DNA of 64,000 bases from Mesoterricola sediminis (GTDB lineage: Bacteria; Acidobacteriota; Holophagae; Holophagales; Holophagaceae). Shown here one piece after another: positions 2,063 through 28,429 of this stretch. The stretch is taken from positions 4,360,001-4,424,000 of the forward strand of contig NZ_AP027081.1 in assembly GCF_030295425.1 (NCBI RefSeq), given 5' to 3'. The stretch's first letter is position 1. Every line of letters starts with the position of its first letter. A program made the translations under genes and the position numbers. The notes beneath the pieces were generated by a model. It made no database searches and had not been told where the DNA came from. It saw only the letters and a program-made list of their open reading frames with translations.

Positions 2063-2950
2063 ATGGCACTCGCCCAATTCGATCTACCCACGGATTACGT
2101 CGACTCCCCGTCGACCCTGGCGGAGGCCCTGCCCCACTGGTTCGCCGCCAACATCCTGGCGGTGGACATCGAGTGCAGCCTCACCGGCTTCCACCACTGC
2201 GTGCTCGCGCTCCTCCAGGTCGCGACCCACGACCGGGCCTGGCTCGTGGACCCCCTGGCGATCCCCGACCTGATGCGCCCCACCCTGCGGGCCATGGCCG
2301 AGGTGCCCTGGATCGTCCACGACTTCTCCGGGGACGGCATCGTCTTCAAGCGCATCTACGACGTGCTGCCGGCCTCCGTGATGGACACCATGCTCCTGGC
2401 CCGGACCCTGGGCTACCCCCAGCCCGGCCTCAAGACCATGGCCAAGCTCAAGCTGGGCGTGGAGATTCCCAAGGAGGAGCAGGACTCCAACTGGATGTAC
2501 CGGCCCCTGCGGCCGGCCCAGGTCAGCTATGCGGCCCGGGACGCGGCGCTGCTGCTGCCCCTGCTCCGCGCGCTCGCGGCCGAGGCCGAGGCGCGCCGGG
2601 ACGATCCCGAGATCGGGCCCCGCCTGGCCCAGCTGCCCGGCGAGATGCGCCGGACCCTCCAGCGGGTGCGCACGTACCGCCCCCCCACGGATCACCCCGT
2701 CGTGGACAAGATCCGGCAGATGGGCCTCGGCGAAGCGGCCGTGGAGCGGGCCCGGAAGCTCACCCACCTGCGCAACGTGTGGGGCAACCAGGGGGATGTG
2801 GCGGCCGTCATGGAGCTGGGCAACCGCTGGATCCTGGCGCGCCTGGAGCACCCCCCCCGCACCCGGGAGGCCCTCGAGCGGTGCATCCCCAATCCCCGGT
2901 TCCGGCGGAACCGCCTCGACGCCCTCTGGGAGATCTTCAGCGGGAACTGA
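2063..2950 (+). CDS. RNase D-like DEDDy 3'-5' exonuclease
   Basis: A 295-residue exonuclease of the RNase D / DnaQ-like superfamily. The catalytic set of the DEDDy class is visible: D35 and E37 in VDIE, D91 in the HDFSGDG segment, and Y156/D160 in YAARD. About 110 residues follow that resemble a degenerate HRDC RNA-binding region. The likely role is trimming of structured RNA 3' ends in the cytoplasm. ATG 2063 follows AGGA at a suitable distance and was preferred over the in-frame start at 2033. The next gene (FliW) starts 45 bases downstream. Confidence 0.85.
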   Translation: MALAQFDLPTDYVDSPSTLAEALPHWFAANILAVDIECSLTGFHHCVLALLQVATHDRAWLVDPLAIPDLMRPTLRAMAEVPWIVHDFSGDGIVFKRIYDVLPASVMDTMLLARTLGYPQPGLKTMAKLKLGVEIPKEEQDSNWMYRPLRPAQVSYAARDAALLLPLLRALAAEAEARRDDPEIGPRLAQLPGEMRRTLQRVRTYRPPTDHPVVDKIRQMGLGEAAVERARKLTHLRNVWGNQGDVAAVMELGNRWILARLEHPPRTREALERCIPNPRFRRNRLDALWEIFSGN

Positions 2951-2995
2951 CCGTCCCCGTGAGACACTGCATCCAGCACGCAGCAGGAGCCTAGG

Positions 2996-3778
2996 ATGAG
3001 CCAGGAAGGACTGATCGTTCATTTCCCCAGCGCGCTGCCGGGCTTCCCCGACCTCCGGGACTTCCGCCTCCTGGAGCCGGAGGGGGGCTATCCGCTCAAG
3101 TTCCTCCAGGCCGTCGAGCGTCCCGAGATTTCCTTCACCTGCATGGACGCCGCCACGGTCAAGCTGGACTACGATGTGCCCCTGGGCGACGACGAAAGCC
3201 GCCTCCTGGGCCTGACGTCCCCCAGCGAGGCCCTGGTCCTCGCCATGGTCGTGGTGCCGGCGCAGGACCCCCGGCGGATGACGGCCAACCTCGCCGGTCC
3301 GCTCGTCATCAACACCCGCACCCGGGTGGGGTGCCAGGTCCGGCTGGACACGCGCGCCTTCCCCCTGGAATATCCGGTCCTCCTCCCCCCGGAACAGGAC
3401 GTGCTCACCTTCCAGGACGGCCTGGTGGGCTTCCCGGACCTGCACCGGTTCCAGCTGCTGGAACCCTCCGACGCCTATCCCTTGAAGTTCCTCCACCCCC
3501 TGGACCGGGAGGACATCCACTTCGTGTGCATCGATGTGGCGGCCATCAAGCCGGACTACCAGGTGCCCCTGAACGAGGAGGAGGCGGAGGCCCTGGCGAT
3601 CGAGCAGCCCTCCGACGCCCTCGTCCTGGCCCTCGTGGTCGTGCCCGAGGATCCCCGGCTCATGACAGCCAACCTGGCCGGCCCCATCCTCGTGAACCTC
3701 CGGACCCGCCAGGGCCGGCAGATCGTGCTCAGCAGCGAGAAGTTCCCCTTGAAATATCCCGTGATCGGCGACAACTAG
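2996..3778 (+). CDS. fliW: tandem-domain FliW (flagellar assembly factor, CsrA antagonist)
   Basis: FliW is normally about 150 residues, binds CsrA and relieves repression of flagellin translation. This 260-residue protein holds two complete FliW domains head to tail. Domain 1 is roughly residues 5-130 and domain 2 roughly 135-258. Each has GFPDL.., YPLKFL, a D.A..K.DY.VPL strand, a VVVP..DPR.MTANLAGP segment and an EYPV or KYPV end. The repeats are clearly homologous but diverged in sequence, so this is an old duplication. csrA follows after 14 bases. Family assignment is certain; why it is doubled is not. Confidence 0.93.
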   Translation: MSQEGLIVHFPSALPGFPDLRDFRLLEPEGGYPLKFLQAVERPEISFTCMDAATVKLDYDVPLGDDESRLLGLTSPSEALVLAMVVVPAQDPRRMTANLAGPLVINTRTRVGCQVRLDTRAFPLEYPVLLPPEQDVLTFQDGLVGFPDLHRFQLLEPSDAYPLKFLHPLDREDIHFVCIDVAAIKPDYQVPLNEEEAEALAIEQPSDALVLALVVVPEDPRLMTANLAGPILVNLRTRQGRQIVLSSEKFPLKYPVIGDN

Positions 3779-3792
3779 CCGGAAAGGGGACC

Positions 3793-4062
3793 ATGCTGGT
3801 CATCACCCGAAAGCTCAATCAGTCGCTCATCATCAATGGGAACATCGAGGTGTTCGTCGTCGGCCTCACGAAGGAAGGGGTGCGCCTGGGCATCAAGGCC
3901 CCCAAGGACGTCCAGGTCCACCGGCGCGAGGTCTTCGACGACATCGCCGCCCAGAACCGCGCCGCGACCACCCAGGCCAAGGAAGGCGGCCTGAGCCTCC
4001 AGGACGCCGCGGCCCTGCTGCGGTCCCGCCTGGCTAAAGCCAGGCCGGACCAGGACCGATAA
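3793..4062 (+). CDS. csrA: carbon storage / translational regulator CsrA
   Basis: An 89-residue RNA-binding translational regulator. The canonical core MLVITRKLNQSLIING and the GVRLGIKAPKDVQVHRREV segment are intact, including the C-proximal arginine used for GGA-motif RNA binding. A roughly 30-residue C-terminal tail (residues 60-89, A/Q/K-rich) extends beyond the usual 60-75 residue protein. It lies directly downstream of the tandem FliW, its expected protein antagonist. ATG 3793 is preceded by GGAAAGGGGA. Confidence 0.96.
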   Translation: MLVITRKLNQSLIINGNIEVFVVGLTKEGVRLGIKAPKDVQVHRREVFDDIAAQNRAATTQAKEGGLSLQDAAALLRSRLAKARPDQDR

Positions 4063-4082
4063 GCCAGGGGTAGGAGTCCGCC

Positions 4083-4265
4083 TTGGAGACCGCATCCCTT
4101 TCCACCGAATCCGTCCTCGCCGCCGCCATGGCCCCGGTGGCCGGCGCCTACAGCGTCGGCGTGGCCCGGAAGGCCCTGGACGTCACCCGCGCCGAGGGCG
4201 AGGCCCTGGTCCGCATGCTGGACGCCGCGGGCGGGATCGGCCAGAACGTGGACACCACCGCCTGA
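4083..4265 (+). CDS. YjfB-like putative motility protein
   Basis: A 60-residue protein resembling the YjfB motility family. It has the short N-terminal ALST-like segment, a VARKALDVTRAEGEALVRML helix and a GIGQNVD C-terminal tail. The molecular function of this family is not established. It starts with TTG at 4083, supported by TAGGAG eight bases upstream and by the family N terminus. The first ATG (4128) would remove the conserved beginning. It is 20 bases downstream of csrA and probably in the same transcript. Its last five residues (VDTTA) are identical to those of the next gene. Confidence 0.7.
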   Translation: METASLSTESVLAAAMAPVAGAYSVGVARKALDVTRAEGEALVRMLDAAGGIGQNVDTTA

Positions 4266-4285
4266 AACCCGGAGAGGAGAGCACC

Positions 4286-4471
4286 ATGAAAGTCGAATCG
4301 GCAGCCGCGTCTCAAGCGAAGGTTCAGAAGACCGAGCAGACCTCCACCCCTCAGCGGGCGGAGGCCCAGCAGCGGGCCCAGGCCCAGCAGCGCCTCCAGA
4401 CCCAGGCGGAAGCGCGCAAACAGCCTGCCAACCCGCCCCACCTGGGCTCGAAGGTGGACACCACGGCCTGA
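4286..4471 (+). CDS. small Q/A-rich protein with YjfB-like C terminus
   Basis: A 61-residue hydrophilic protein with a glutamine-, alanine- and arginine-rich middle (repeats of the type RAEAQQRAQAQQR) that is probably helical. It ends in PHLGSKVDTTA, which resembles the end of YjfB-family proteins and matches the end of the preceding gene. The N-terminal half has no recognisable family. ATG 4286 follows GGAGAGGAG, a strong ribosome site. It closes the fliW-csrA group ahead of a hairpin at 4490. Confidence 0.6.
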   Translation: MKVESAAASQAKVQKTEQTSTPQRAEAQQRAQAQQRLQTQAEARKQPANPPHLGSKVDTTA

Positions 4472-16301: not shown

Positions 16302-17510
16302 TCAGCCCGCCAGCCAGTCCACGATCCGGGCCAGGTCGGCGACCTCGTGCCAGCCGTGGAAGGCGAGGCGCAGGTAGCCCTCCCGCACCGAAACGTAGAT
16401 GCCCCGGCGCATGCCCAGGGCCAGGACCTCGCCCAGGCCTTCGGGGCCCCGGTCCCCGTGGTGCAGGGAGAGGAAGGAGCCGACGCGCCCCGCCTCCAGC
16501 AGGTCCCGAAGGCGCAGCGACTCGGCCCGCCAGGCGGGAACGTCCCCGAGGGCGTCCAGGAGGCGGACCTGGAGGCGCCGCACATGGGCCTGGATCTCGG
16601 GCACGCCGGCCCCGTTCACGGTGCGGAAGGATTCCAGGGCCCCCGCGCAGCTGATGAGGCTGAGGGTCCCGGGCTCCATGCGGCGCCCGTCCTGGAGCCA
16701 GGCCCGGCGGTGGTCGGTGGAGGGGCGGTCGAACTCGGTGCCCCCTTCCACGGAGAGCCAGGAGCCCGTGGGCACCAGCTGCTCCCGGAAGGCGGGGTCG
16801 GTCCAGAGGAAGCCCATGCCCTGGGGGCCCAGCAGGCCCTTGTGGCCGCCCGCGGCGAAGGCGGCGACCCCCGTCAGGTCCGGCACGGCGGTGCCGGCGC
16901 CCTGGATGCCGTCCACCACCAGGTGGACGCCTCGGCCACGACAGGCGGCGGCCAGGGTGGGCAGGTCCAGGACGAGGCCGTCCTGGAAGCGGACCCAGGA
17001 CACAGCCAGGACACGGGTGGAGGGGCCCAGGGCCGCGATCAGCCGGTCCTCGGGCCGATCCCCGGCGGTGGGGGGACGGGTGGCCCAGGCCTCCTCCCCG
17101 GCCCGGTGCCCCTCCCACAGCGGCACCTCCCGGAAGCGCACGCCCCGGGCCTCGAGGGCCTTCCAGGGCCAGATGTTGCTGGGGAACTCGCCCAGGGGGG
17201 CGACGACCTCGTCCCCCCGGCTCCAGCGCAGGGCCTGGGCGACGGTGACCAGGCCGGAGGAGGTGGAGGGGGTGAGGGTGATGTCGGAGGCTTCCCCGCC
17301 CACGAGCCGCGCGGCTTCCGCCCGCAGGGCGTCGGGGATCCCCAGGAAGTCCTCCCGCCACTGGCATTCCCAGGGCCAGAGCTCCTTGTGGAGGTGGGCG
17401 CGCACGGCCCGGACCACGGACCGCGGGACGGGCCCCTCCGAGCAGTGCATGAGCCAGAGGTGGTCGGGGTCCAGGTGGAGGAGGGCGGGGTTGAGGGGCG
17501 GCAGAGTCAC
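16302..17510 (-). CDS. class-V (PLP-dependent) aminotransferase family protein
   Basis: A 402-residue fold-type-I PLP enzyme of the class-V aminotransferase / cysteine-desulfurase superfamily. The cofactor aspartate lies in [10 protein letters not shown] and the Schiff-base lysine in [14 protein letters not shown]. There is no conserved C-terminal catalytic cysteine as in desulfurases, so an isopenicillin-N-epimerase-like or aminotransferase activity is more likely; the substrate is unknown. GTG 17510 was chosen because it overlaps the thyX stop (GTGA) and begins the conserved part. An in-frame extension to 17600 would run far into thyX. Confidence 0.8.
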
Positions 17511-19426
17511 GGCCGGACCCGGAGCAGGGCCTGGAGGGACCGGGGATAGACGCCTTCGACGATCCCGCGCACGGCGTGGGCGTACTGCTGGATCTCCCAC
17601 TGGGCGTGGCTGTCGGTGCGGAGGCGGATGAAGTGGGCGGCGGCCTGGAGGCTCACGGTCCAGTAGACCTCGGAGTAGAGGCCCAGGGGCAGGACGCAGC
17701 GGGCCTGCTCCCGGCAGACCCCCAGGGCGATCAGCTGCTTGTACTGGGCGACGGCGTTGCGGCAGGTGGCCAGGAAGACCTCGTGGGCTTGGTCCCCGTC
17801 GGGACCATCCACCCGCCCCTCCGACCCCTGTTTGTTGACCTTGGCCTGGCGGCGGAAGGTTTCGGGGACGAAGAATTCGTCCTCGGGGAACTCTACGTAC
17901 CGGCCGCTGATCTCGTTGAATTCGCTGTTATGGACGACGATCCCGTTGGCCACGAAATTATGCCAGGGGCCTTCGACGCACAGGTCATAGGTGGGCTGGA
18001 CCCCCAGGAAGGCCACCGTCGAAACAGCTACCGGGTGGGCCAGAAGACGATGATCTCCCGTTCTCCTGGGCTTCTGTTCCAGTTCGGGGGGCAGGGTCCC
18101 CACGCATGTGCGGGCAAAGGCCACCTCCGCGTCCCGGTTCCGATGGATCGTCCGATGGCAGGTCGAACAGACCGATGCCAGGTTCCCAGCATCAAAAGCC
18201 CGCGATGGATCCATCCAGACGGGGATGATGTGATGGGCATGGAGGGCCTCGGACCTTTCCCCGCAGGCCTGGCAAATTCCGCCGTTGTTCGCGTGGAGGA
18301 CCTTGGCCTGGCGCGCCGTCCAGGCTCCGATCTTCTCCCGTTCGCTTGAAAGTCCCCCGCGCCACCAGTTGGAGGCCTTTCCCGAGCGGTGGAGTCTTCT
18401 CTTGGCCCGCTGGGCCTCGGTAAGGTCCATTGGACCAGAGGAATAGCTCCGACCCCGGTTCCAGGATTCATGGCCGCGACCGAACCGCGTCTCCTCGGGC
18501 GAGAAGGAAAGGTCATGGACCTTCAGCCATTTCCGGATGGTGTGGGGGGAACAGCCCGCCAATTCCGCCATCTCGGCGAGGCCCCGGCCCAGGCTCCGCT
18601 GCTCCCGCAGCCAATGCGCGTCGCGGTGCGCTTCGACCCCGTTGACCATCAGCGAGCATGGCCTCGTCATCCGGGGTTCCTCCCCTTCCGGGTGCTCCAG
18701 TCCCGTGGCCTCTCCCATCCGCATCCACCCTTGGGAGGTCAGGACGCGATGATTGGTCGTCATGGTGAGCTGTTTGCCGTCCGCGAGGGTCAGCCGGTAA
18801 ACGGGCTGGGGCCCCCGTTCGACGATCCCGGCGATGTGTCCGGTCTCGAAGGTGTTATCGCGCTCGTTGAGAACCCTGAGGTTCATGTTCCGGATCCGGC
18901 TTCTCGCTGAACCCTTCGTGCTGAAGGTGCCCTGGCGGATCTTCCTGACGGTGGCGCGGTCGACACCCGTCTGGCGCTGGATTTCCCGGTCCGAAATCCC
19001 TTGCCTGGCCATGTCCCGGACCAGGGCCACCCGTGCCTCGTCCGGCGCCGTTCCATTACCCTGCCCCGCGGACCAGGCCGTCCACAGTTCATCCATGGTC
19101 TTCCGCAACCTCGGGTTGGCGACCCCATTCGTGTTCACGAAGGTCACGACGGCATCGCCGGTCAAGCAGGCGATGCGGTGTTTCATCCATTGCCGGAAGA
19201 CGAAGATGGGGGCCTTCACGTGGAAGGTCATGGAGGTGTGGCGGAAGGGGGAGGTGTGGTCGTGGGCGGCCAGGTAGTCGATGAGCTTTTCGTCCGCCTC
19301 ATCGAACGTCTCCTTTCGCTTGCCGAAGCTGACCCGGGCGGCGTTGACCACGCTCAGGTCGGACCCCATGTGGTCCACCAGCTTCACGAATCCTCGGTCC
19401 AGGACGGTCTGTTCCAGCAGGGGCAT
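17507..19426 (-). CDS. thyX: flavin-dependent thymidylate synthase ThyX containing an intein
   Basis: A 639-codon gene encoding ThyX, which makes dTMP from dUMP with FAD and methylenetetrahydrofolate, interrupted in frame by an intein (residues 87-500). The exteins are residues 1-86 and 501-639, giving a 225-residue mature enzyme of normal size. The insertion splits the ThyX signature: KHRIA before the intein and [13 protein letters not shown] after it, so the unspliced precursor should be inactive. The first residue of the usual RHR is K here. ATG 19426 is preceded by CCGGAGATCCC. The downstream aminotransferase overlaps by four bases. Confidence 0.95.
17927..19168 (-). other. ThyX intein with HNH homing endonuclease (coding segment)
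   Basis: A 414-residue intein. Block A is [10 protein letters not shown] with Cys87 at the N-terminal splice junction, block B includes [10 protein letters not shown] (H226), and block F is [21 protein letters not shown] ending in His499-Asn500, with Ser501 as the first C-extein residue. All splicing residues are intact. The endonuclease portion has an HNH domain at 385-428 (CQACG ... [10 protein letters not shown] ... [10 protein letters not shown]). It also has two helix-turn-helix segments, at about 140-166 ([18 protein letters not shown]) and 281-303 ([19 protein letters not shown]). Codon use is less GC-biased than in the exteins. Confidence 0.93.
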
Positions 19427-20262: not shown

Positions 20263-20325
20263 GACAAATTATTTCAATGATGCGGTAACCTGTCTGCCGG
20301 TTGCCCCCATTTGAAAGGTGTCACG

Positions 20326-22890
20326 ATGGCCACGTTCCAGGTCAACGGCCGGACAGTAGAGACGTCCCGTGATATGAACCTCCTGGATTTCCTCCGGGAG
20401 GAGCTGGACATCACGTCGGTGAAGAACGGCTGCTCCGAGGGGGCCTGCGGCGCCTGCATGGTCCTCCTGGACGGCAAGGCCTCGCGGGCCTGCCTCTTCA
20501 ACACCGCCAAGCTGGAAGGCCGCAAGGTGGTCACCGTCGAAGGCCTCACCGACCGGGAGAAGGACGTCTTCTCCTGGTCGTACGCCAACGCCGGGGCCGT
20601 GCAGTGCGGCTTCTGCATGCCGGGCATGGTCATCAGCACGAAGGCCATCCTCGACGCCAATCCGGACCCGCGCCCCGAGGAGATCTCCAAGGCGCTGGGC
20701 CTGAACGTCTGCCGCTGCACCGGCTACGTGAAGATCGAGAAGGCCGTCCTGGACGCCGGGCGCATGCTCCGCGAGGGCGCGCCGGTCCCCTCCGGGGAGG
20801 AGACGCAGCTGGCCGTGGGCGAGCGCATCTGCCGCACCGACGCCCGGGAGAAGGCCCTGGGCGAGGGCAAGTACGTGGACGACATGAAGGTGCCGGGCAT
20901 GCTGCACGGCGCCGTGCTCCGGCCCCCCAAGGCCCGGGTCAAGGTGCTGGGCATCGACGCCTCGGAGGCGCTGGCCATGCCGGGGGTCGTCAAGGTGATC
21001 ACGGCCGCGGACGTGCCCGGCGATCGCCACCAGGGCCACATCATCCACGACTGGCCCGCCATGATCGCCGTGGGCGAGGAGACCCGCTACGTGGGCGACG
21101 CCCTCGCCCTGGTGGCGGCCGAGAGCCGGGCCATCGCCCGCGAGGCGGTCAAGAAGATCAAGCTGGACTGCGAGGTCCTCCCGCCCCTCGTGGATCCCCG
21201 GAAGGCCCTGCTGGACGACGCGCCCCGGCTGCACCCCAAGGGCAACCTCCTGGCGCGGACGGTCCTGCGCCGCGGCGACCCGGAGAAGGCCATCGCGGAG
21301 GCCGCCCACGTCATCCGCCACACCTTCACCACGCCCGAGACGGAGCACGCCTTCATGGAGCCCGAGAGCGCCCTGGCCGTGCCCGGCGAGGACGGGACCA
21401 TGACGTTGTACACGGGCACCCAGAGCATCTACGACGACCACAAGGGCATCGTCGGCGTCCTGGGCGTCCCGCCCGAGAAGGTCAAGGTCGTCAGCGCCTA
21501 CGTGGGCGGCGGCTTCGGCGGCAAGGAGGACCTGATCGTCCAGCACCACGCCGCCCTCCTGGCCAACGCCACGGGCAGGCCCGTCAAGGTGACCCTGGCC
21601 CGCCAGGAGTCCATCAAGGTCCACCCCAAGCGGCACGCGTTCGAGATGGCCTACACGGTGGCCGCGGACGCCGAAGGGCGCATCACGGCCGTGAAGGCGG
21701 AGCTCCTGGAGGACACCGGCGCCTACGCGAGCCTCGGCGGCCCCGTGCTCCAGCGCGCCTGCACCCACGCGGCGGGCCCCTACCGGATCCCCAACATCGA
21801 CATCGTGGGCACCGGGGTCTACACCAACAACCCGCCGGGGGGCGCCTTCCGCGGCTTCGGCGTGACCCAGTCCTGCTTCGCCATGGAGAGCTGCATCAAC
21901 GAGCTCGCCGGGAAGGTGGGCCTCACCCCCTGGCAGATCCGCTGGCTGAACGCGGTCGAGCCCGGCGACGTCCTCCCCAACGGGCAGATCTGCGACGCGG
22001 GCACGGCCTTCAAGGAGACCCTCCTGGCCGTGAAGGACCTCTGCGAGGCGCGCCCCGACGCCGGGGTCGCCAGCGCCATGAAGAACGCCGGCATCGGCGT
22101 CGGGCTCTCGGACGTGGGCCGGGTGCGCATCCGCGTGAAGGGCGGCAAGGCCGTCATCTACACCAGCGCCGCCTGCATCGGCCAGGGCCTGGCCTCCGTG
22201 CTCATGCAGTACGTGGCCGACGCCTCGGGCCTGGGCTGGGGCCAGATCGAGGTGGCGGTGCCCGACACGAGCACCTCCCCCAACGGCGGGACCACCACCG
22301 CCAGCCGCCAGACCGTGTTCAACGGCGAGGCCGCCCGCCTCGCGGCCGAGGACCTGAAGCGGGACCTGGCCACGGCCACCCTCGCCGACCTGGAGGGCCG
22401 CGAGTACTACCGGGAGTATTCGGGCGTCACGGATCCCTTCGGGTCCGACAAGCCCAACCCGGTCAGCCATGTCGCCTACTCCTTCGCCACCCAGGTGGTG
22501 CTCCTGGACGCCGAGGGCCGGCTGGAGAAGGTCGTCGCGGCCCACGACGTGGGCCGGGCCGTGAACCCGGCCCAGGTGGAGGCCCAGATCGAGGGCGGCG
22601 TGGTCATGGGCCTGGGCTACGCCCTGACGGAGGACTTCCCCCTGAAGGACGGCGAGCCCCAGGTGAAGTACGGCACCCTCGGCCTCTTCAAGGCCGCCCA
22701 GGTGCCGCCCATCGAGCCGGTCATCGTCGAGAAGAACCCCTCGGACCTGGCCTACGGAGCCAAGGGCCTGGGCGAGATCACCACGATCCCCACGGCCCCG
22801 GCGGTCGCCTGCGCCTACCTCCTTCGGGACGGCGGGTTCCGCACGGACCTGCCCCTGGCCGGGACCCCCTACAGCCGGAAGAAGGGATGA
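20326..22890 (+). CDS. selenium-dependent xanthine dehydrogenase (fused FeS and Mo subunits)
   Basis: An 854-residue molybdenum hydroxylase that oxidises xanthine or related purines at the Mo centre. The N-terminal plant-type [2Fe-2S] domain has C36, C41, C44 and C56. The second [2Fe-2S] domain has C94, C97, C129 and C131. They are fused directly to the Mo-binding domain (VGGGFGGKED, and GLGE with the catalytic Glu near residue 816). There is no FAD domain. This FeS-Mo fusion is the layout of the selenium-dependent XDH family, which needs a labile Se ligand. ATG 20326 follows GAAAGGTG. It heads a run of eight coupled genes. Confidence 0.92.
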   Translation: MATFQVNGRTVETSRDMNLLDFLREELDITSVKNGCSEGACGACMVLLDGKASRACLFNTAKLEGRKVVTVEGLTDREKDVFSWSYANAGAVQCGFCMPGMVISTKAILDANPDPRPEEISKALGLNVCRCTGYVKIEKAVLDAGRMLREGAPVPSGEETQLAVGERICRTDAREKALGEGKYVDDMKVPGMLHGAVLRPPKARVKVLGIDASEALAMPGVVKVITAADVPGDRHQGHIIHDWPAMIAVGEETRYVGDALALVAAESRAIAREAVKKIKLDCEVLPPLVDPRKALLDDAPRLHPKGNLLARTVLRRGDPEKAIAEAAHVIRHTFTTPETEHAFMEPESALAVPGEDGTMTLYTGTQSIYDDHKGIVGVLGVPPEKVKVVSAYVGGGFGGKEDLIVQHHAALLANATGRPVKVTLARQESIKVHPKRHAFEMAYTVAADAEGRITAVKAELLEDTGAYASLGGPVLQRACTHAAGPYRIPNIDIVGTGVYTNNPPGGAFRGFGVTQSCFAMESCINELAGKVGLTPWQIRWLNAVEPGDVLPNGQICDAGTAFKETLLAVKDLCEARPDAGVASAMKNAGIGVGLSDVGRVRIRVKGGKAVIYTSAACIGQGLASVLMQYVADASGLGWGQIEVAVPDTSTSPNGGTTTASRQTVFNGEAARLAAEDLKRDLATATLADLEGREYYREYSGVTDPFGSDKPNPVSHVAYSFATQVVLLDAEGRLEKVVAAHDVGRAVNPAQVEAQIEGGVVMGLGYALTEDFPLKDGEPQVKYGTLGLFKAAQVPPIEPVIVEKNPSDLAYGAKGLGEITTIPTAPAVACAYLLRDGGFRTDLPLAGTPYSRKKG

Positions 22891-23927
22891 GCCAGGAACT
22901 GGTCCGGATCCTCGCCGAGGGCGGCCCGGGCCGCTCCCTCAGCACCGTGGTGCGGGTCCAGGGCTCGGCGCCCCGGCACGCGGGATCCATGATGATCGCG
23001 GGTCCCGGAGGCCTCGTCGCGGGCTCCGTGGGCGGCGGCCGGGGCGAGGCCCGGGTGCTGGCCGAGGCCGCGGCCGCCGCCGCCGAGGGCCGGCCCCGCC
23101 TGGTGGAGATCGACATGCAGGGCCAGGACGCCCAGGGCCCCGACATGGTCTGCGGCGGCACCAGCCGCATCCTGGTCCAGCCCGCCTCGGACCCCGCCCC
23201 CTTCGCGGCGGCCCTGGACCGGCTCGCCCGGGGGGAGCGCGCGCTCCTGGCCACCCGGATCGGCGCGGGCACCACGCACGTGATGGCCGCCGACGGGACC
23301 TGGATCCACGGGGGCGACCCCGGCGCGGACCCGGACCTGGCCCAGCGCGCCCTGGAGTGCGGCCACCCCGCGGCGGATGCCGGCGGGGACCTGCATCTCC
23401 TGCCCCTGCTCCCCAGGGAGAAGCTCCTGATCCTGGGCGCGGGCCACGTGGGGCGCGCCCTGGCGGCGCTGGCCCCCGGGCTCTGCTTCGACGTGACCCT
23501 GGGCGACGACCGGAGCGCCTTCCTGGAGGCGGACCGCCTGCCCCCGGGCGTGGCGGCGGCCCACGGCACCTTCACGGAGATCGTGGAGGCCTTCCCCTTC
23601 GACGCCTCGACCTACGCGGTCGTGGTGTCCCGGGGGCATCTCTCCGACCTGGAGTGCGTGCGCGCGCTGCTGAAGCGCCCCTGGCGCTACGCCGGCTTCA
23701 TGGGCAGCGTCCGGAAGGTGCGGCTCGTGCTGGACCAGGCCCTCGCCGACGGCCTGGACCCGGCCCGGATCGCCGCCCTGTGCGCCCCCATCGGCCTCGA
23801 CATCGAGGCGGAGACGCCGGAGGAGCTCGCGGTGGCCATCGCGGGCGAACTCATCGCCGTCCGCCGCCGGGCCCCGGCCCTGGAGCCCATCCAGGCCGCG
23901 CGCAGGGCCCGCCGCGGGAAGCCGTGA
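22887..23927 (+). CDS. xdhC: XdhC family molybdenum-cofactor insertion chaperone
   Basis: A 346-residue XdhC/CoxI-type protein, a chaperone that binds Mo cofactor and delivers it in active form to molybdenum hydroxylases. The N-terminal XdhC domain shows STVVRVQGSAPRHAGSMMI and the C-terminal Rossmann domain LLILGAGHVGRALAALA, followed by YAVVVSRGHLSDLE and CAPIGLDIEAETPEELAVAIAGELI. Its ATG overlaps the xdh stop (ATGA), so the two are coupled. A second XdhC paralogue lies at 46096. Confidence 0.93.
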   Translation: MSQELVRILAEGGPGRSLSTVVRVQGSAPRHAGSMMIAGPGGLVAGSVGGGRGEARVLAEAAAAAAEGRPRLVEIDMQGQDAQGPDMVCGGTSRILVQPASDPAPFAAALDRLARGERALLATRIGAGTTHVMAADGTWIHGGDPGADPDLAQRALECGHPAADAGGDLHLLPLLPREKLLILGAGHVGRALAALAPGLCFDVTLGDDRSAFLEADRLPPGVAAAHGTFTEIVEAFPFDASTYAVVVSRGHLSDLECVRALLKRPWRYAGFMGSVRKVRLVLDQALADGLDPARIAALCAPIGLDIEAETPEELAVAIAGELIAVRRRAPALEPIQAARRARRGKP

Positions 23928-24679
23928 ACCTGGCCGGGGCCCTCCTGCCCCGGATCCCCGCGGGCGGCTCCGTGGCCTTCGTGGGCGGGGGCGGCAAGAC
24001 CACGGCCATGCTGACCCTGGGCCTGGCCCTGGGCGCGGCGGGGCGGAGCGTCCTGATGACCACCACGACCCACCTGGCCGAGCCGGGCCCCGGGCCCCTG
24101 CCCTACGACGTCCTCGTCCGGCCGGAACTGGCGGAGGCCGGCGGCGGCGGCCCCCTGCCCCGCCCCGGGGGGCGCCCCGCGCTGCTGGTCACCGGCCCGG
24201 GCCGGGAGGCGCGCAAGGTGGCCGGGGTCCATCCCGCCTGGATCCCCCGCCTGCGGACCGCCTGGGACGTGGTGCTCGTGGAGGCCGACGGCTCCCGCCG
24301 CCTCCCGGTCAAGGCCCCCGCCCCCCACGAACCCCGCCTGCCCGAGGGGCCCTGCCTCGTGGTGGGCCTGGTGGGCCTCAGCTGCCTGGGCCGGCCCCTG
24401 GACGCCGGGACCGTCCATCGCCCGGACCGCTTCGCGGCCGTGACGGGGTGCGCCCCCGGCGCCCCGATCACGGCGACCCACCTGGCGAACCTCGTCCGCC
24501 ACCCGGAGGGCCTGTTCAAGGGCGCGGGACCGGACCGGGTGCTGGTGCTGAACCAGGCCGACCGGTGCGCCGCGCCGCCCGGGGGCCGCTGGGCCCGGGC
24601 CCTCGCCCCCCTCCCCGTCCTCCTAGGGTCGCTGGAAGCCGGGGATGGCGGTATCGTCTGGCTGGAGGAGGTTCCATGA
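23924..24679 (+). CDS. yqeC: YqeC, selenium-dependent hydroxylase accessory protein
   Basis: A 251-residue P-loop protein. The Walker A-like segment VGGGGKTTAMLTL lies near residues 20-32, followed by MTTTTH and the VVLVEADGSRRLPVKAPAPHEP segment typical of YqeC. This family is found with selD and molybdenum hydroxylases and is thought to help form or insert the Se-Mo cofactor; the reaction is not known. The GTG start at 23924 overlaps the xdhC stop (GTGA) and fits the family N terminus. Confidence 0.9.
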   Translation: MNLAGALLPRIPAGGSVAFVGGGGKTTAMLTLGLALGAAGRSVLMTTTTHLAEPGPGPLPYDVLVRPELAEAGGGGPLPRPGGRPALLVTGPGREARKVAGVHPAWIPRLRTAWDVVLVEADGSRRLPVKAPAPHEPRLPEGPCLVVGLVGLSCLGRPLDAGTVHRPDRFAAVTGCAPGAPITATHLANLVRHPEGLFKGAGPDRVLVLNQADRCAAPPGGRWARALAPLPVLLGSLEAGDGGIVWLEEVP

Positions 24680-25473
24680 CACGCATTCCCGGCGACCTGG
24701 TCCTGGTGCGGGGTGCGGGCGACTTGGCCACCGGGGTCATCGTGCGCCTGGTCCACGCCGGCTACCGCGTCGTCGCCGTCGAGACCCCGGCGCCCAGCGC
24801 CATCCGCCGCACCGTGGCCCTGTCCGAGGCCGTCTACGCGGGGGAGGCGGAGGTGGAGGGGGTCCGGGCCGTGCGCTGCGCGGCGGTGCCCGCGGCCTGG
24901 GCGCCGGGGGACCCCGTCCCCGTGCTCGTGGACCCGGACCTGGCCTGCCTGGATTCCCTGCGGCCCGCGGCCCTGGTGGACGCCATCCTCGCCAAGCGCA
25001 ACCTCGGGACCCGCCTCGCCATGGCCCCCTTGGTGGTGGCCCTCGGCCCCGGCTTCACGGCCGGGGTGGACGCCCACGCGGTGGTGGAGACCAACCGCGG
25101 GCACGACCTGGGCCGGGTGCTCCTCACCGGCCAGGCGGAGCCCAACACCGGGATCCCCGGCCTGATCGCCGGCCAGGGCGCCACGCGGGTGCTGCACGCG
25201 CCCCGGGACGGCCGGGTGGAAACCTGCTGCGCCATCGGCGATACGGTCCGGGCGGGGGACCCCCTCCTCACGGTCGGCGGCGAGCCGGTGGCCTCCGCCC
25301 TCGACGGGGTGGTCCGGGGCCTCATCCGCCCCGGCTACCCAGCGCACCGGGGGCTCAAGATCGCCGACGTGGATCCCCGCTGCGTGCGCGCCCACTGCTT
25401 CACCATCTCCGACAAGGCCCGGGCCATCGCGGGCGGGGTGCTGGAGGCCCTGCTCAGGCTGGGGGCGCCGTGA
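24676..25473 (+). CDS. yqeB: YqeB, selenium-dependent molybdenum hydroxylase maturation protein
   Basis: A 265-residue protein of the YqeB family, restricted to genomes with selenium-dependent molybdenum hydroxylases and believed to act in Se-cofactor maturation. It has an N-terminal Rossmann-like start (LVLVRGAGDLATGVIVRLVHAGYRVVAVE), then LVDAILAKRN, VVALGPGFTAG, VETNRGHDLGRV and a C-terminal lipoyl-like beta region (RVLHAPRDGRVE ... VRGLIRPG). ATG 24676 overlaps the yqeC stop (ATGA). Confidence 0.9.
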   Translation: MTRIPGDLVLVRGAGDLATGVIVRLVHAGYRVVAVETPAPSAIRRTVALSEAVYAGEAEVEGVRAVRCAAVPAAWAPGDPVPVLVDPDLACLDSLRPAALVDAILAKRNLGTRLAMAPLVVALGPGFTAGVDAHAVVETNRGHDLGRVLLTGQAEPNTGIPGLIAGQGATRVLHAPRDGRVETCCAIGDTVRAGDPLLTVGGEPVASALDGVVRGLIRPGYPAHRGLKIADVDPRCVRAHCFTISDKARAIAGGVLEALLRLGAP

Positions 25474-26588
25474 TCTACCTGGACAACGCCGCCACCAGCC
25501 ACCCCAAGGCCCCGGGCGTGCCGGAGGCGGTGGCGGCCTGCCTGGCCTCGGGAGCGGGCAGCCCTGGCCGGGCCACCCACGGGCCGGCCCTGGAAGCCGC
25601 CCGCACGGTCTTCGGGGCGCGCACGGCCTGCGCCCGGCTCCTGGGCCTGCCGGACCCCGCCCGCCTCGTCTTCACCAAGAACGCCACGGAGGCCCTGAAC
25701 CTGGCCATCCTGGGCGCCGTGCCCCCGGGCGGGACGGTCGCCGTCTCCTCCCTCGAGCACAACGCGGTGATGCGGCCCGTGCGCCACCTGGAGGCGACCC
25801 TGGGCGCGCGGGTGCTCGTCGTGCCCTTCGACGCGTGCGGCCGGCCGGATCCCGGCGCCCTGGCCGGGGCGCTGGAGGCCCGTCCGGATCTTTTCGTCCT
25901 CACCGCCGCCAGCAACGTCACGGGGGCCCTGCCACCGGTGGAGGAGGTGGCCGCGGCCTGCGCCCGGCACGGGGTCCCCCTCTGCGTGGATGCCAGCCAA
26001 GCGGCGGGGCACCTGCCCCTGCCCACCGGCTGCGCCTACCTGGCCTTCCCGGGGCACAAGGGCCTGCTGGGGCCCGGCGGCACCGGCGGCCTGGCGCTCG
26101 GCCCCGGGGTCCTGCCCCCGCCCCTCCTCCGGGGGGGCACGGGGAGCGCCTCGGAGCTGGAGACCCAGCCGGAGATGCTGCCCGACCGCTACGAGGCCGG
26201 CACCCCCAATGTGCCGGGCCTGGCCGGGCTCGCCCGGGCCGTGACCTACCTGGCCGAAGCCGGGCCGGGCCCGGAAGGCGCCTTGGCCGCGCAGCTGGCG
26301 GAGGGCCTCGCGGCCCTGCCCGGGGCGGCCCTCGTGGGCCCCGGGCCCCGGGCGCCCCGGGCCCCGGTCGTCTCCGTGGCCCTGCCGGACCGGGACCTGG
26401 GCGAGGTGGCCCTGGCCCTGGACCGCCGGGGCATTTGCGCCCGGGCCGGCCTCCATTGCGCGCCGGCGGCGCACCGGAGCCTGGGCACCTTCGGGGCGGG
26501 GGGGACCCTCCGCTTCTCCCCGGGGCGGTTCACGACCCCCGCGGACCTGGAAACGGCCCTGGCGGCCCTGGCGGAGATCCTGGCATGA
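25470..26588 (+). CDS. cysteine desulfurase / selenocysteine lyase-like protein
   Basis: A 372-residue class-V PLP enzyme. It has IYLDNAATSHPK, a cofactor Asp in LCVDASQAAGHL, the Schiff-base lysine in [10 protein letters not shown], and the active-site cysteine in RAGLHCAPAAHR, so a persulfide or perselenide mechanism is possible. Sitting between yqeB and selD, it most likely supplies reduced sulfur or selenium to the selenium cofactor pathway; this is inferred from context. It starts with GTG 25470 overlapping the yqeB stop (GTGA). Confidence 0.88.
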   Translation: MIYLDNAATSHPKAPGVPEAVAACLASGAGSPGRATHGPALEAARTVFGARTACARLLGLPDPARLVFTKNATEALNLAILGAVPPGGTVAVSSLEHNAVMRPVRHLEATLGARVLVVPFDACGRPDPGALAGALEARPDLFVLTAASNVTGALPPVEEVAAACARHGVPLCVDASQAAGHLPLPTGCAYLAFPGHKGLLGPGGTGGLALGPGVLPPPLLRGGTGSASELETQPEMLPDRYEAGTPNVPGLAGLARAVTYLAEAGPGPEGALAAQLAEGLAALPGAALVGPGPRAPRAPVVSVALPDRDLGEVALALDRRGICARAGLHCAPAAHRSLGTFGAGGTLRFSPGRFTTPADLETALAALAEILA

Positions 26589-27604
26589 AGCTGACCGAGC
26601 ACACCCGATTTTCCGGCTGCGGGGCCAAGCTGGGCCCCGGCGTCCTGGACAAGGCCCTCTGCGGCCTCTCCCAGCCCGCCTACCCCGGGCTGGTGGCGGA
26701 CTTCGCCGGGGGGGAGGACGCGGGGGTGTTCCGCCTCGCGCCGGGCCTCGCCCTCGTCCAGACCGTGGACTTCTTCCCGCCCATCGTGGACGATCCCCGC
26801 CTCTTCGGGCGCATCGCCGCGGCCAACGCCCTGTCCGACGTCTACGCCATGGGGGGCCGGCCCGTCACCGCCCTCGCCCTGGTGTGCCACCCCCTGAAGG
26901 CCCTGGGCCTGGAGCCGCTCCGGGCCATGCTGGAGGGCGGCCTGGAGGCCCTCGTGGAGGCGGGGTGCGCCCTCCTCGGCGGCCACAGCGTGGAGGACGC
27001 GGAGCCGAAGCTGGGCTACGCGGTGACGGGCCTCGTGGATCCGGACCGGGCCTGGCGGAACAACACCCTCGAGCCGGGCTGCGCCCTCCTCCTCACCAAG
27101 CCCCTGGGCACGGGCCTCGTGAACATGGCCGTGCGGGCCGGCCTCGCCTCGCCGGAGGCGGTGGAGGCCTCCCAGGCGTCCATGGCCACCCTCAACCGCG
27201 CGGCGGCCGAGGTGCTCGCGGCCTTCCCCGTGAAGGCCTGCACCGACGTGACGGGCTTCGGCCTGGCGGGCCACGCCGCCGAGATGGCCGCGGGCCCCCG
27301 CTGCGGCGTCGTGCTCCATGCGGACGCCCTGCCCTTCCTGCCCGGGGTGGCCGAGTACGCCGCCATGGGGCTGGTCCCCGAAGGCACCTACCGCAACCGG
27401 GAGGGCCGCGGCCACGTCCTGGCGGGAACGGCGCCGGAGGGCCTGCTGGACCTGGTCTTCGACCCCCAGACCAGCGGCGGCCTCCTGGCGGCGGTGCCGG
27501 AGGCCGCGGCCGGCGACGCCCTGGCCGCCCTGCGCGCCGCGGGCGTCACCGCCTGGGCCGTGGGCGAAGCCGGGGGCGAACCCGGCTCGGTGCGCCTGGC
27601 CTGA
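26585..27604 (+). CDS. selD: selenide, water dikinase (selenophosphate synthetase)
   Basis: A 339-residue enzyme that makes selenophosphate from selenide and ATP. The active-site Cys12 and Lys15 lie in RFSGCGAK. ATP/Mg residues are seen in QTVDFFPPIVDDP and AANALSDVYAMGG, with GGHSVED and DPQTSGG downstream. It is the cysteine form and needs no recoding. No selA, selB or tRNA-Sec is in the window. Its place among hydroxylase maturation genes argues that selenophosphate here feeds the labile Se cofactor. ATG 26585 overlaps the preceding stop. Confidence 0.95.
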   Translation: MKLTEHTRFSGCGAKLGPGVLDKALCGLSQPAYPGLVADFAGGEDAGVFRLAPGLALVQTVDFFPPIVDDPRLFGRIAAANALSDVYAMGGRPVTALALVCHPLKALGLEPLRAMLEGGLEALVEAGCALLGGHSVEDAEPKLGYAVTGLVDPDRAWRNNTLEPGCALLLTKPLGTGLVNMAVRAGLASPEAVEASQASMATLNRAAAEVLAAFPVKACTDVTGFGLAGHAAEMAAGPRCGVVLHADALPFLPGVAEYAAMGLVPEGTYRNREGRGHVLAGTAPEGLLDLVFDPQTSGGLLAAVPEAAAGDALAALRAAGVTAWAVGEAGGEPGSVRLA

Positions 27605-27606
27605 CC

Positions 27607-27852
27607 ATGGACCTGCTGGCCACCTTCCCCTCCACCCACGCCGTCCTGGCCGCCGAGGCGCGCCTGAGGGCGGCGGGCCTGGAGGTGGAACTCATCCCCG
27701 TCCCCCGCCAGATCCGCAGCAGCTGCGGGTTCTGCCTGCTCGCCCAGGCGTCGGCGGAGGCCCCCCTGCTCGCCCAGGGCCCGGAGCGCCTCTGGCGCGT
27801 CCTCGAACCCGGTCCCGGCCATCCCCGGAGGCGCTATGAGCCCTGCCCCTGA
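27607..27852 (+). CDS. DUF3343 protein (putative Se/S carrier-like)
   Basis: An 81-residue protein with the DUF3343 pattern: LLATFPSTHAVLAAEARLRAAG, then ELIPVPRQIRSSCGFCLL with a CGFC pair. Members sit next to yedF and selD in many genomes and are suspected Se or S carriers, but no activity is proven. It begins two bases after the selD stop and overlaps the start of yedF by 17 bases. Confidence 0.8.
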   Translation: MDLLATFPSTHAVLAAEARLRAAGLEVELIPVPRQIRSSCGFCLLAQASAEAPLLAQGPERLWRVLEPGPGHPRRRYEPCP

Positions 27853-28429
27853 GACCCTCGACACCCGCGGCCTGGCCTGCCCCCAGCCGGTGATCCTCGT
27901 CCGGAAGGCCCTGGCGGAACGCGGCCGGGTCCCCCTGGAGGTGCTCGCCGACGCGGGGGCGGCCCGGGAGAACCTCCTCAAGTTCGCCGCCTGGGCCCAG
28001 GTCGGCGCCGAGGTCACGGAGGAGGACGGCTGGGTCCGAATCCGCCTCACCCCCGCCGGGGCCCCCGGGGAGGCCCCCGCGCCGGCCCCGGCGCCGTCCG
28101 CCGGCGGGGCCACGGTCCTGGTGGCCTCCGACGCGGTGGGCCAGGGCGACGAGACCCTGGGGCGGCTCCTCATGCGCGGGTTCCTCTACACCCTCACCGA
28201 GGCGGAGCTCCCCCCGGCCCGGGTGATCCTCATGAACGCCGGGGTCAAGCTGGCCGTGGATGGCTCCGAGAGCCTGGCCAGCCTCCGGCGCCTGGAGGAG
28301 CTGGGGGTGGAGGTCCTGGCCTGCGGCACCTGCCTGGACTTCTACAAGCTCACGCCCGCCGTGGGCCGGGTGACCAACATGTACGAGATCGCGGGCCACC
28401 TCCTGCAGGGGCCGGCGGTCCGGGTCTGA
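27836..28429 (+). CDS. yedF: selenium metabolism protein YedF
   Basis: A 197-residue two-domain protein. The N-terminal TusA/SirA-like domain (TLDTRGLACPQPVILVRKAL) has the conserved cysteine in ACPQP, and the C-terminal DsrE-like domain (ATVLVASDAVGQGDETLGRLLMRGFLYTL ... EVLACGTCLDFYKL) has the paired cysteines ACGTC. They are joined by an Ala/Pro linker. TusA and DsrE domains relay persulfide sulfur, so it is a plausible perselenide carrier. It is the last gene of the eight-gene selenium operon. Confidence 0.9.
   Translation: MSPAPETLDTRGLACPQPVILVRKALAERGRVPLEVLADAGAARENLLKFAAWAQVGAEVTEEDGWVRIRLTPAGAPGEAPAPAPAPSAGGATVLVASDAVGQGDETLGRLLMRGFLYTLTEAELPPARVILMNAGVKLAVDGSESLASLRRLEELGVEVLACGTCLDFYKLTPAVGRVTNMYEIAGHLLQGPAVRV

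Follow-up and report, generated by a model that had tools for sequence, protein, structure and literature searches.

ThyX inteins that carry an HNH domain are already known from mycobacteriophages (PMC5050341), and for the cyanobacterial Ter ThyX intein an engineered mini-version was found to splice almost completely in E. coli (PMC3620165). For VMA inteins it is known that the DNA recognition region of PI-SceI (the SceVMA intein) is inserted in the HINT domain and that HTH-like accessory domains alter which sites get cut; whether accessory domains drive target change is a question that has been posed for the archaeal VMA inteins (PMC8966425). Here we analyse a ThyX intein from Mesoterricola sediminis (Acidobacteriota), encoded within a stretch of 64,000 nucleotides (positions 4,360,001 to 4,424,000 of contig NZ_AP027081.1, hereafter the window). 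As ThyX inteins at this motif had been described before (PMC5050341; PMC3620165), the case is less novel than the initial annotation of the window had implied: an HNH intein in ThyX is a known kind of element, while the version found here, which carries an HTH in the region that joins splicing blocks A and B (the A-B region), is uncommon, and a literature search of limited extent returned no description of an acidobacterial ThyX intein or of an HNH intein with an HTH in that region.

Results

The window encodes a ThyX precursor (Table 1) in which matches to the Pfam Thy1 model flank an insert on both sides, leaving a gap of 414 residues between the two ThyX-matching ends. The insert (precursor residues 87-500) is 1242 bp long, in frame and free of stop codons, and joining its flanks restores the 15-residue ThyX signature motif, with a spliced product of 225 residues as calculated from the coordinates. 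Family searches and alignment thus agree with the initial annotation that the insertion lies inside the signature motif, and the coordinates that it gave for the intein were right to the base.

Table 1. Features of the thyX locus, in coordinates of the window (residue numbers are those of the intein unless stated otherwise).
Feature	Position	Strand	Basis
thyX precursor gene (ThyX exteins and intein)	17507..19426	-	ORF, 639 aa; Pfam Thy1 171.7 bits (cut-off 24.8); NCBIfam thyX 174 bits (cut-off 87.9)
N-extein, ThyX residues 1-86, last letters KHRIA	19169..19426	-	translation and extein comparison
C-extein, 139 residues and stop	17507..17926	-	translation and extein comparison
Intein, 414 residues, Cys1 to His413-Asn414	17927..19168	-	sequence, alignment, predicted model
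Splicing block A (Cys1, CLTGD...)	19130..19168	-	alignment
Accessory HTH between blocks A and B; helices 44-55, 60-67, 71-78	18935..19039	-	Pfam, predicted models
N-terminal HINT strands and block B	18737..18880	-	alignment, predicted model
Catalytic His140 (protein His226)	18749-18751	-	block B
Second HTH, endonuclease module, residues 184-217	18518..18619	-	Pfam, predicted model; common to relatives
HNH nuclease domain, residues 299-343	18140..18274	-	PF01844 32.3 bits (cut-off 21.4)
C-terminal HINT part, blocks F and G, residues 375-414	17927..18046	-	TIGR01443 25.5 bits (cut-off 15.6)

All splicing residues reported by the initial annotation were indeed found: Cys87, His226 (in block B, TTNHRV), His499-Asn500 and Ser501, along with block F (HNFVANG). 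A Cys at position 1, the TxxH of block B, a C-terminal His-Asn, Ser at +1 and an in-frame insertion together place the element among the class 1 inteins. Its C-terminal end is recognized by TIGR01443 above the cut-off, and PF14890 scored 33.5 bits, slightly below its cut-off of 35.8. An AlphaFold2 model of the intein reached a mean pLDDT of 88, and the HINT part of this model matched the Ssp DnaB mini-intein (1mi8) with a Z score of 21.4 and 1.4 Å over 137 residues spanning model residues 1 to 414, the superposition on solved mini-inteins being good in spite of both inserts (HTH and endonuclease). In the alignment nearly all members share one layout, in which block A is followed by a helix (KTMDELW in the window copy), a variable stretch, a shared segment of 11 residues and block B. 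These matches and intact residues of ThyX and intein are far beyond chance.

The endonuclease module consists of the HNH domain, whose motif with its metal and zinc ligands is intact in the window copy, and the second HTH, which matches HTH models weakly (protein residues 284-306). Across 17 full-length inteins the cysteines, H312, N329, H338 and H342 are invariant and H313 is nearly so. The initial annotation had counted two HTH segments and an HNH domain in the intein and called this build unusual. Family searches, comparative alignment and structure prediction all agree with the count; the adjective holds for the HTH between blocks A and B, but not for the second HTH, which relatives commonly have in their HNH module.

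The M. sediminis genome is complete (a single contig of 4,524,604 bases), and neither ThyA nor a second ThyX was found in these 4.52 Mb, so that the intein-split thyX is the sole source of de novo dTMP found and is not made dispensable by a second thymidylate synthase, a circumstance that the initial annotation had named as one that would speak against its reading. One thymidine kinase is encoded, and thymidine salvage could therefore bypass ThyX. The Pfam splicing model returned no other intein in the genome, a weak test given that this model barely detects the ThyX intein itself. Elsewhere in the window, an ORF at 20311-22890 (+) encodes an aldehyde/xanthine dehydrogenase-type molybdenum enzyme with the [2Fe-2S] domain and the molybdopterin-binding subunit fused, and the GC content at 23001-28000 is ~77-79%, compared to a window mean of 71%.

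The alleles are filled sporadically, as would be expected of a homing element, which is how the initial annotation had described the intein. Among 77 genomes of the family (Holophagaceae), 69 had a ThyX match, and in two of these 69, the genome of the window and G033, thyX is split by an intein; these two are also the only carriers in a phylum-wide sample of 396 genomes. By contrast, the thyX of all five sampled congeners (G066-G070) is uninterrupted and matches the joined flanks of the window at 25-27 of the 30 bases that surround the site, and the intein has thus not reached fixation in the genus. No co-conversion footprint was visible around the insertion site against these five congeners.

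Scanning the GTDB species genomes gave 80 loci, and the reading frames of these were inspected. The closest named carrier is a Geothrix metagenome-assembled genome (MAG) (L042, apparently the same genome as G033), with an intein 60% identical to that of the window. In this MAG and in three actinobacterial MAGs (L043-L045) the insertion lies before the first Ser of RHRxx^SxNExSxRY, as in the window, and Ca. Cyanaurora (L051) has an intein at the equivalent place. The remaining readable matches, dozens of cyanobacterial ThyX proteins, carry a homologous intein at a site distinct from that of the window, namely in front of the second Ser (SFDVQ^SFRY). In the cyanobacteria, full-length ThyX inteins bearing one HTH or two in tandem occur alongside inteins of ~180-295 residues (L100-L121) from which the HNH domain has mostly disappeared, forming a decay series. 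A fourth actinobacterial copy (G683; L214 and L217) retains the A-B HTH and has a frameshift between the second HTH and the HNH, owing to assembly error or decay.

Viral and phage ThyX inteins were found at the first site (L124, L125, L207, L208, Norm, StAugustine), two residues downstream of it (L206, vir335), at the second site (L204, L205, LR756500) and past the RY of the motif (L126-L129). At the last of these positions, just after RY, L126, L128 and L129 (around 2178-3861) have Cys at +1; LR756500.1 is a 462-kb uncultured phage whose thyX HNH intein (L010, ORF 2713-4431), at the cyanobacterial second-Ser position, is distantly related. The ThyX signature motif has thus been entered at about four closely spaced positions.

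The initial annotation had singled out an HTH lying between blocks A and B as unusual, and a three-helix unit is indeed predicted there. The window copy, L042 and L043-L045 share a stretch of ~50 residues in this place that matches HTH models in Pfam, in the window at protein residues 132-165 and below each individual cut-off (HTH_28, 24.3 bits); L042 scored 20.0 bits with HTH_17, L043 24.0 bits with HTH_38 and L044 35.7 bits with HTH_38 over two stretches, while L045 matched very weakly. AlphaFold2 placed three helices there in the window protein, with block means of pLDDT above 90, and put them at the same residues in L045. The distance from Cys1 to the His of block B is 139-140 residues in the five HTH copies, compared to 79-112 in all others measured except L206. 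On the basis of these models the A-B HTH is confidently predicted to be a real three-helix unit inserted into an intact HINT fold. Within the same loop, the viral ThyX intein of L206 (3001-3918) has an AP2-like domain (24.6 bits against a cut-off of 33.3), apparently a second, independent insertion.

Among the ThyX inteins examined, the A-B HTH is confined to one acidobacterial-actinobacterial clade. In a tree from which the HTH columns were omitted, and from which very long viral branches and the mini-intein L208 were excluded, its five carriers make up one clade (support 100/98), to which the HTH-free L051 is the closest outgroup (94/90, not decisive). As the carriers group together and this outgroup has no HTH, the HTH was most likely acquired a single time in this lineage, either once the first insertion site was already in use or independently of site choice. 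The idea that the HTH caused the site shift is unsupported: L051 and the viral L124 and L125 use the site of the window without it. The same version of the HTH was found neither on a phage nor on a plasmid, whether among the matches listed from IMG/VR (short peptide patterns) or in INPHARED and PLSDB, at the sensitivity used.

The HTH is 63% identical between the two acidobacterial copies (whole intein, 60%) and 24-27% identical between acidobacterial and actinobacterial copies, so that it may be under weak or changing constraint; the endonuclease HTH is 54-61% identical across the same two phyla. This pattern of divergence fits a DNA-contacting part that tracks changes of its target, or a replaceable module, and is proof of neither. 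A profile comparison matched the A-B HTH to the endonuclease HTH with 92% probability and 22% identity, values that are within reach of unrelated HTHs.

Between phyla, the intein shows higher identity than the ThyX that hosts it: against the window, actinobacterial copies are ~51-53% identical in the intein and 38-46% in the extein, and cyanobacterial copies ~44-49% and 24-26%, respectively. These identities point to horizontal movement of the intein between bacterial phyla. Intein and extein also differ in GC3 (0.79 and 0.92, respectively). The window extein is nearest to those of its congeners (84.6-87.3%, three compared), which fits a resident gene that was invaded. Between the window and G033 the inteins are 60% and the exteins 76% identical, and this lower identity of the inteins could reflect either separate arrivals or faster evolution of the intein.

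Discussion

Taken together, these results favour, with a probability of roughly 0.8, a class 1 intein that is mobile by means of an HNH homing endonuclease, has acquired an accessory DNA-binding HTH and resides in the only thyX of its host; splicing and cleavage are what we infer from sequence and models. The HINT domain would excise itself after translation through an acyl shift at Cys1, transfer to Ser+1 and cyclisation of Asn414, to yield a 225-residue active ThyX and a free intein protein of 414 residues. Since the engineered mini Ter ThyX spliced near completely in E. coli (PMC3620165), splicing is likely here as well. The free intein, or the precursor, could then use its HTH parts to bind the motif of an intein-less thyX, which the HNH domain would nick or cut, and the intein would be copied in by recombination. 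In such a scheme the A-B HTH would serve as an accessory DNA-binding domain that adds target contacts, much as the DNA recognition region does that PI-SceI carries in its HINT domain; we lean slightly towards the HTH supplying DNA contacts on the homing target.

The intein might instead splice with an inactive endonuclease, as a fixed and decaying passenger, the fate suggested by the many cyanobacterial copies of ~180-295 residues without HNH and by the frameshift in one HTH-bearing actinobacterial copy. This is quite improbable for the window copy, in which the HNH and zinc-ligand residues are intact; moreover, the HNH is the best conserved segment (70%) between the two Holophagaceae copies, and congeners with empty sites show that the intein is unfixed in the genus. 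The intein is probably still mobile.

For the A-B HTH, two further explanations were weighed. Its position within the splicing domain, adjoining the block B region, and its similarity to HTHs of repressors and transposases would suit a regulatory role, whether autorepression by the excised intein at a site close to thyX or a change in splicing when DNA is bound beside block B. However, the HTH occurs only in copies with a full endonuclease or its remains, and its rapid divergence between hosts fits target tracking at least equally, and we give regulation little credence. The HTH could also be a functionless, passively tolerated insertion, derived from a transposase-type HTH by capture or from the endonuclease HTH by copying; the low Pfam scores, matches like those of IS21/IS5376 transposases, the profile similarity to the endonuclease HTH and the low identity between the acidobacterial and actinobacterial versions would all agree with such an origin. 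Yet the three-helix unit is intact in all five full-length members of the clade, from two phyla, and is conserved between the two acidobacterial copies as well as the rest of the intein, which makes a functionless insertion rather unlikely. An accessory DNA-binding domain of a mobile intein thus remains the reading that we prefer.

More tentatively, the A-B loop may be a recurrent docking place for interchangeable DNA-binding modules (the acidobacterial-actinobacterial HTH, the viral AP2-like domain) that tune target recognition by ThyX HNH inteins and so aid the crossing of phyla and homing into diverging versions of one motif; we hold this to be possible rather than probable. Within one catalytic motif, related inteins occupy two sites that are separated by five to six codons, with more distant ones at further positions, and ThyX inteins with and without an added DNA-binding module offer a natural test set for target change of the endonuclease and for the role of accessory domains. 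The locus also records an Acidobacteriota intein that stands between its host and the only thymidylate synthase of that host.

Among known systems, the ThyX inteins of mycobacteriophage cluster C (Norm, StAugustine; PMC5050341) share with the window the insertion before the first Ser, the HNH and the splicing blocks, but they are 255-257 aa long, have an HTH in neither place, reach ~27-36% identity in local matches and form a separate clade in the tree. The cyanobacterial ThyX inteins are homologous over the full length and share the HTH and HNH endonuclease module; unlike the window copy, they sit five residues downstream, have a short linker in place of the A-B HTH, often have tandem endonuclease HTHs and include many minis (for Ter ThyX (PMC3620165), the site is inferred from the sequences of cyanobacterial relatives). 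The viral L206 (IMGVR_UViG_2563367078_000003) likewise has a DNA-binding-type domain in the A-B loop of a ThyX HNH intein, whereas this domain is AP2-like, the insertion site is shifted and the intein belongs to the mycobacteriophage-type clade. PI-SceI, TliVMA and PI-TkoII (PMC8966425) also combine HINT and endonuclease with an accessory DNA-binding domain, an HTH in TliVMA and PI-TkoII, although their endonuclease is of the LAGLIDADG type rather than HNH, and in the archaeal TliVMA and PI-TkoII the accessory domain lies between the endonuclease and the C-terminal HINT part instead of between blocks A and B. In PI-SceI the accessory domain lies inside HINT, a position that is also predicted for the HTH of the window intein.
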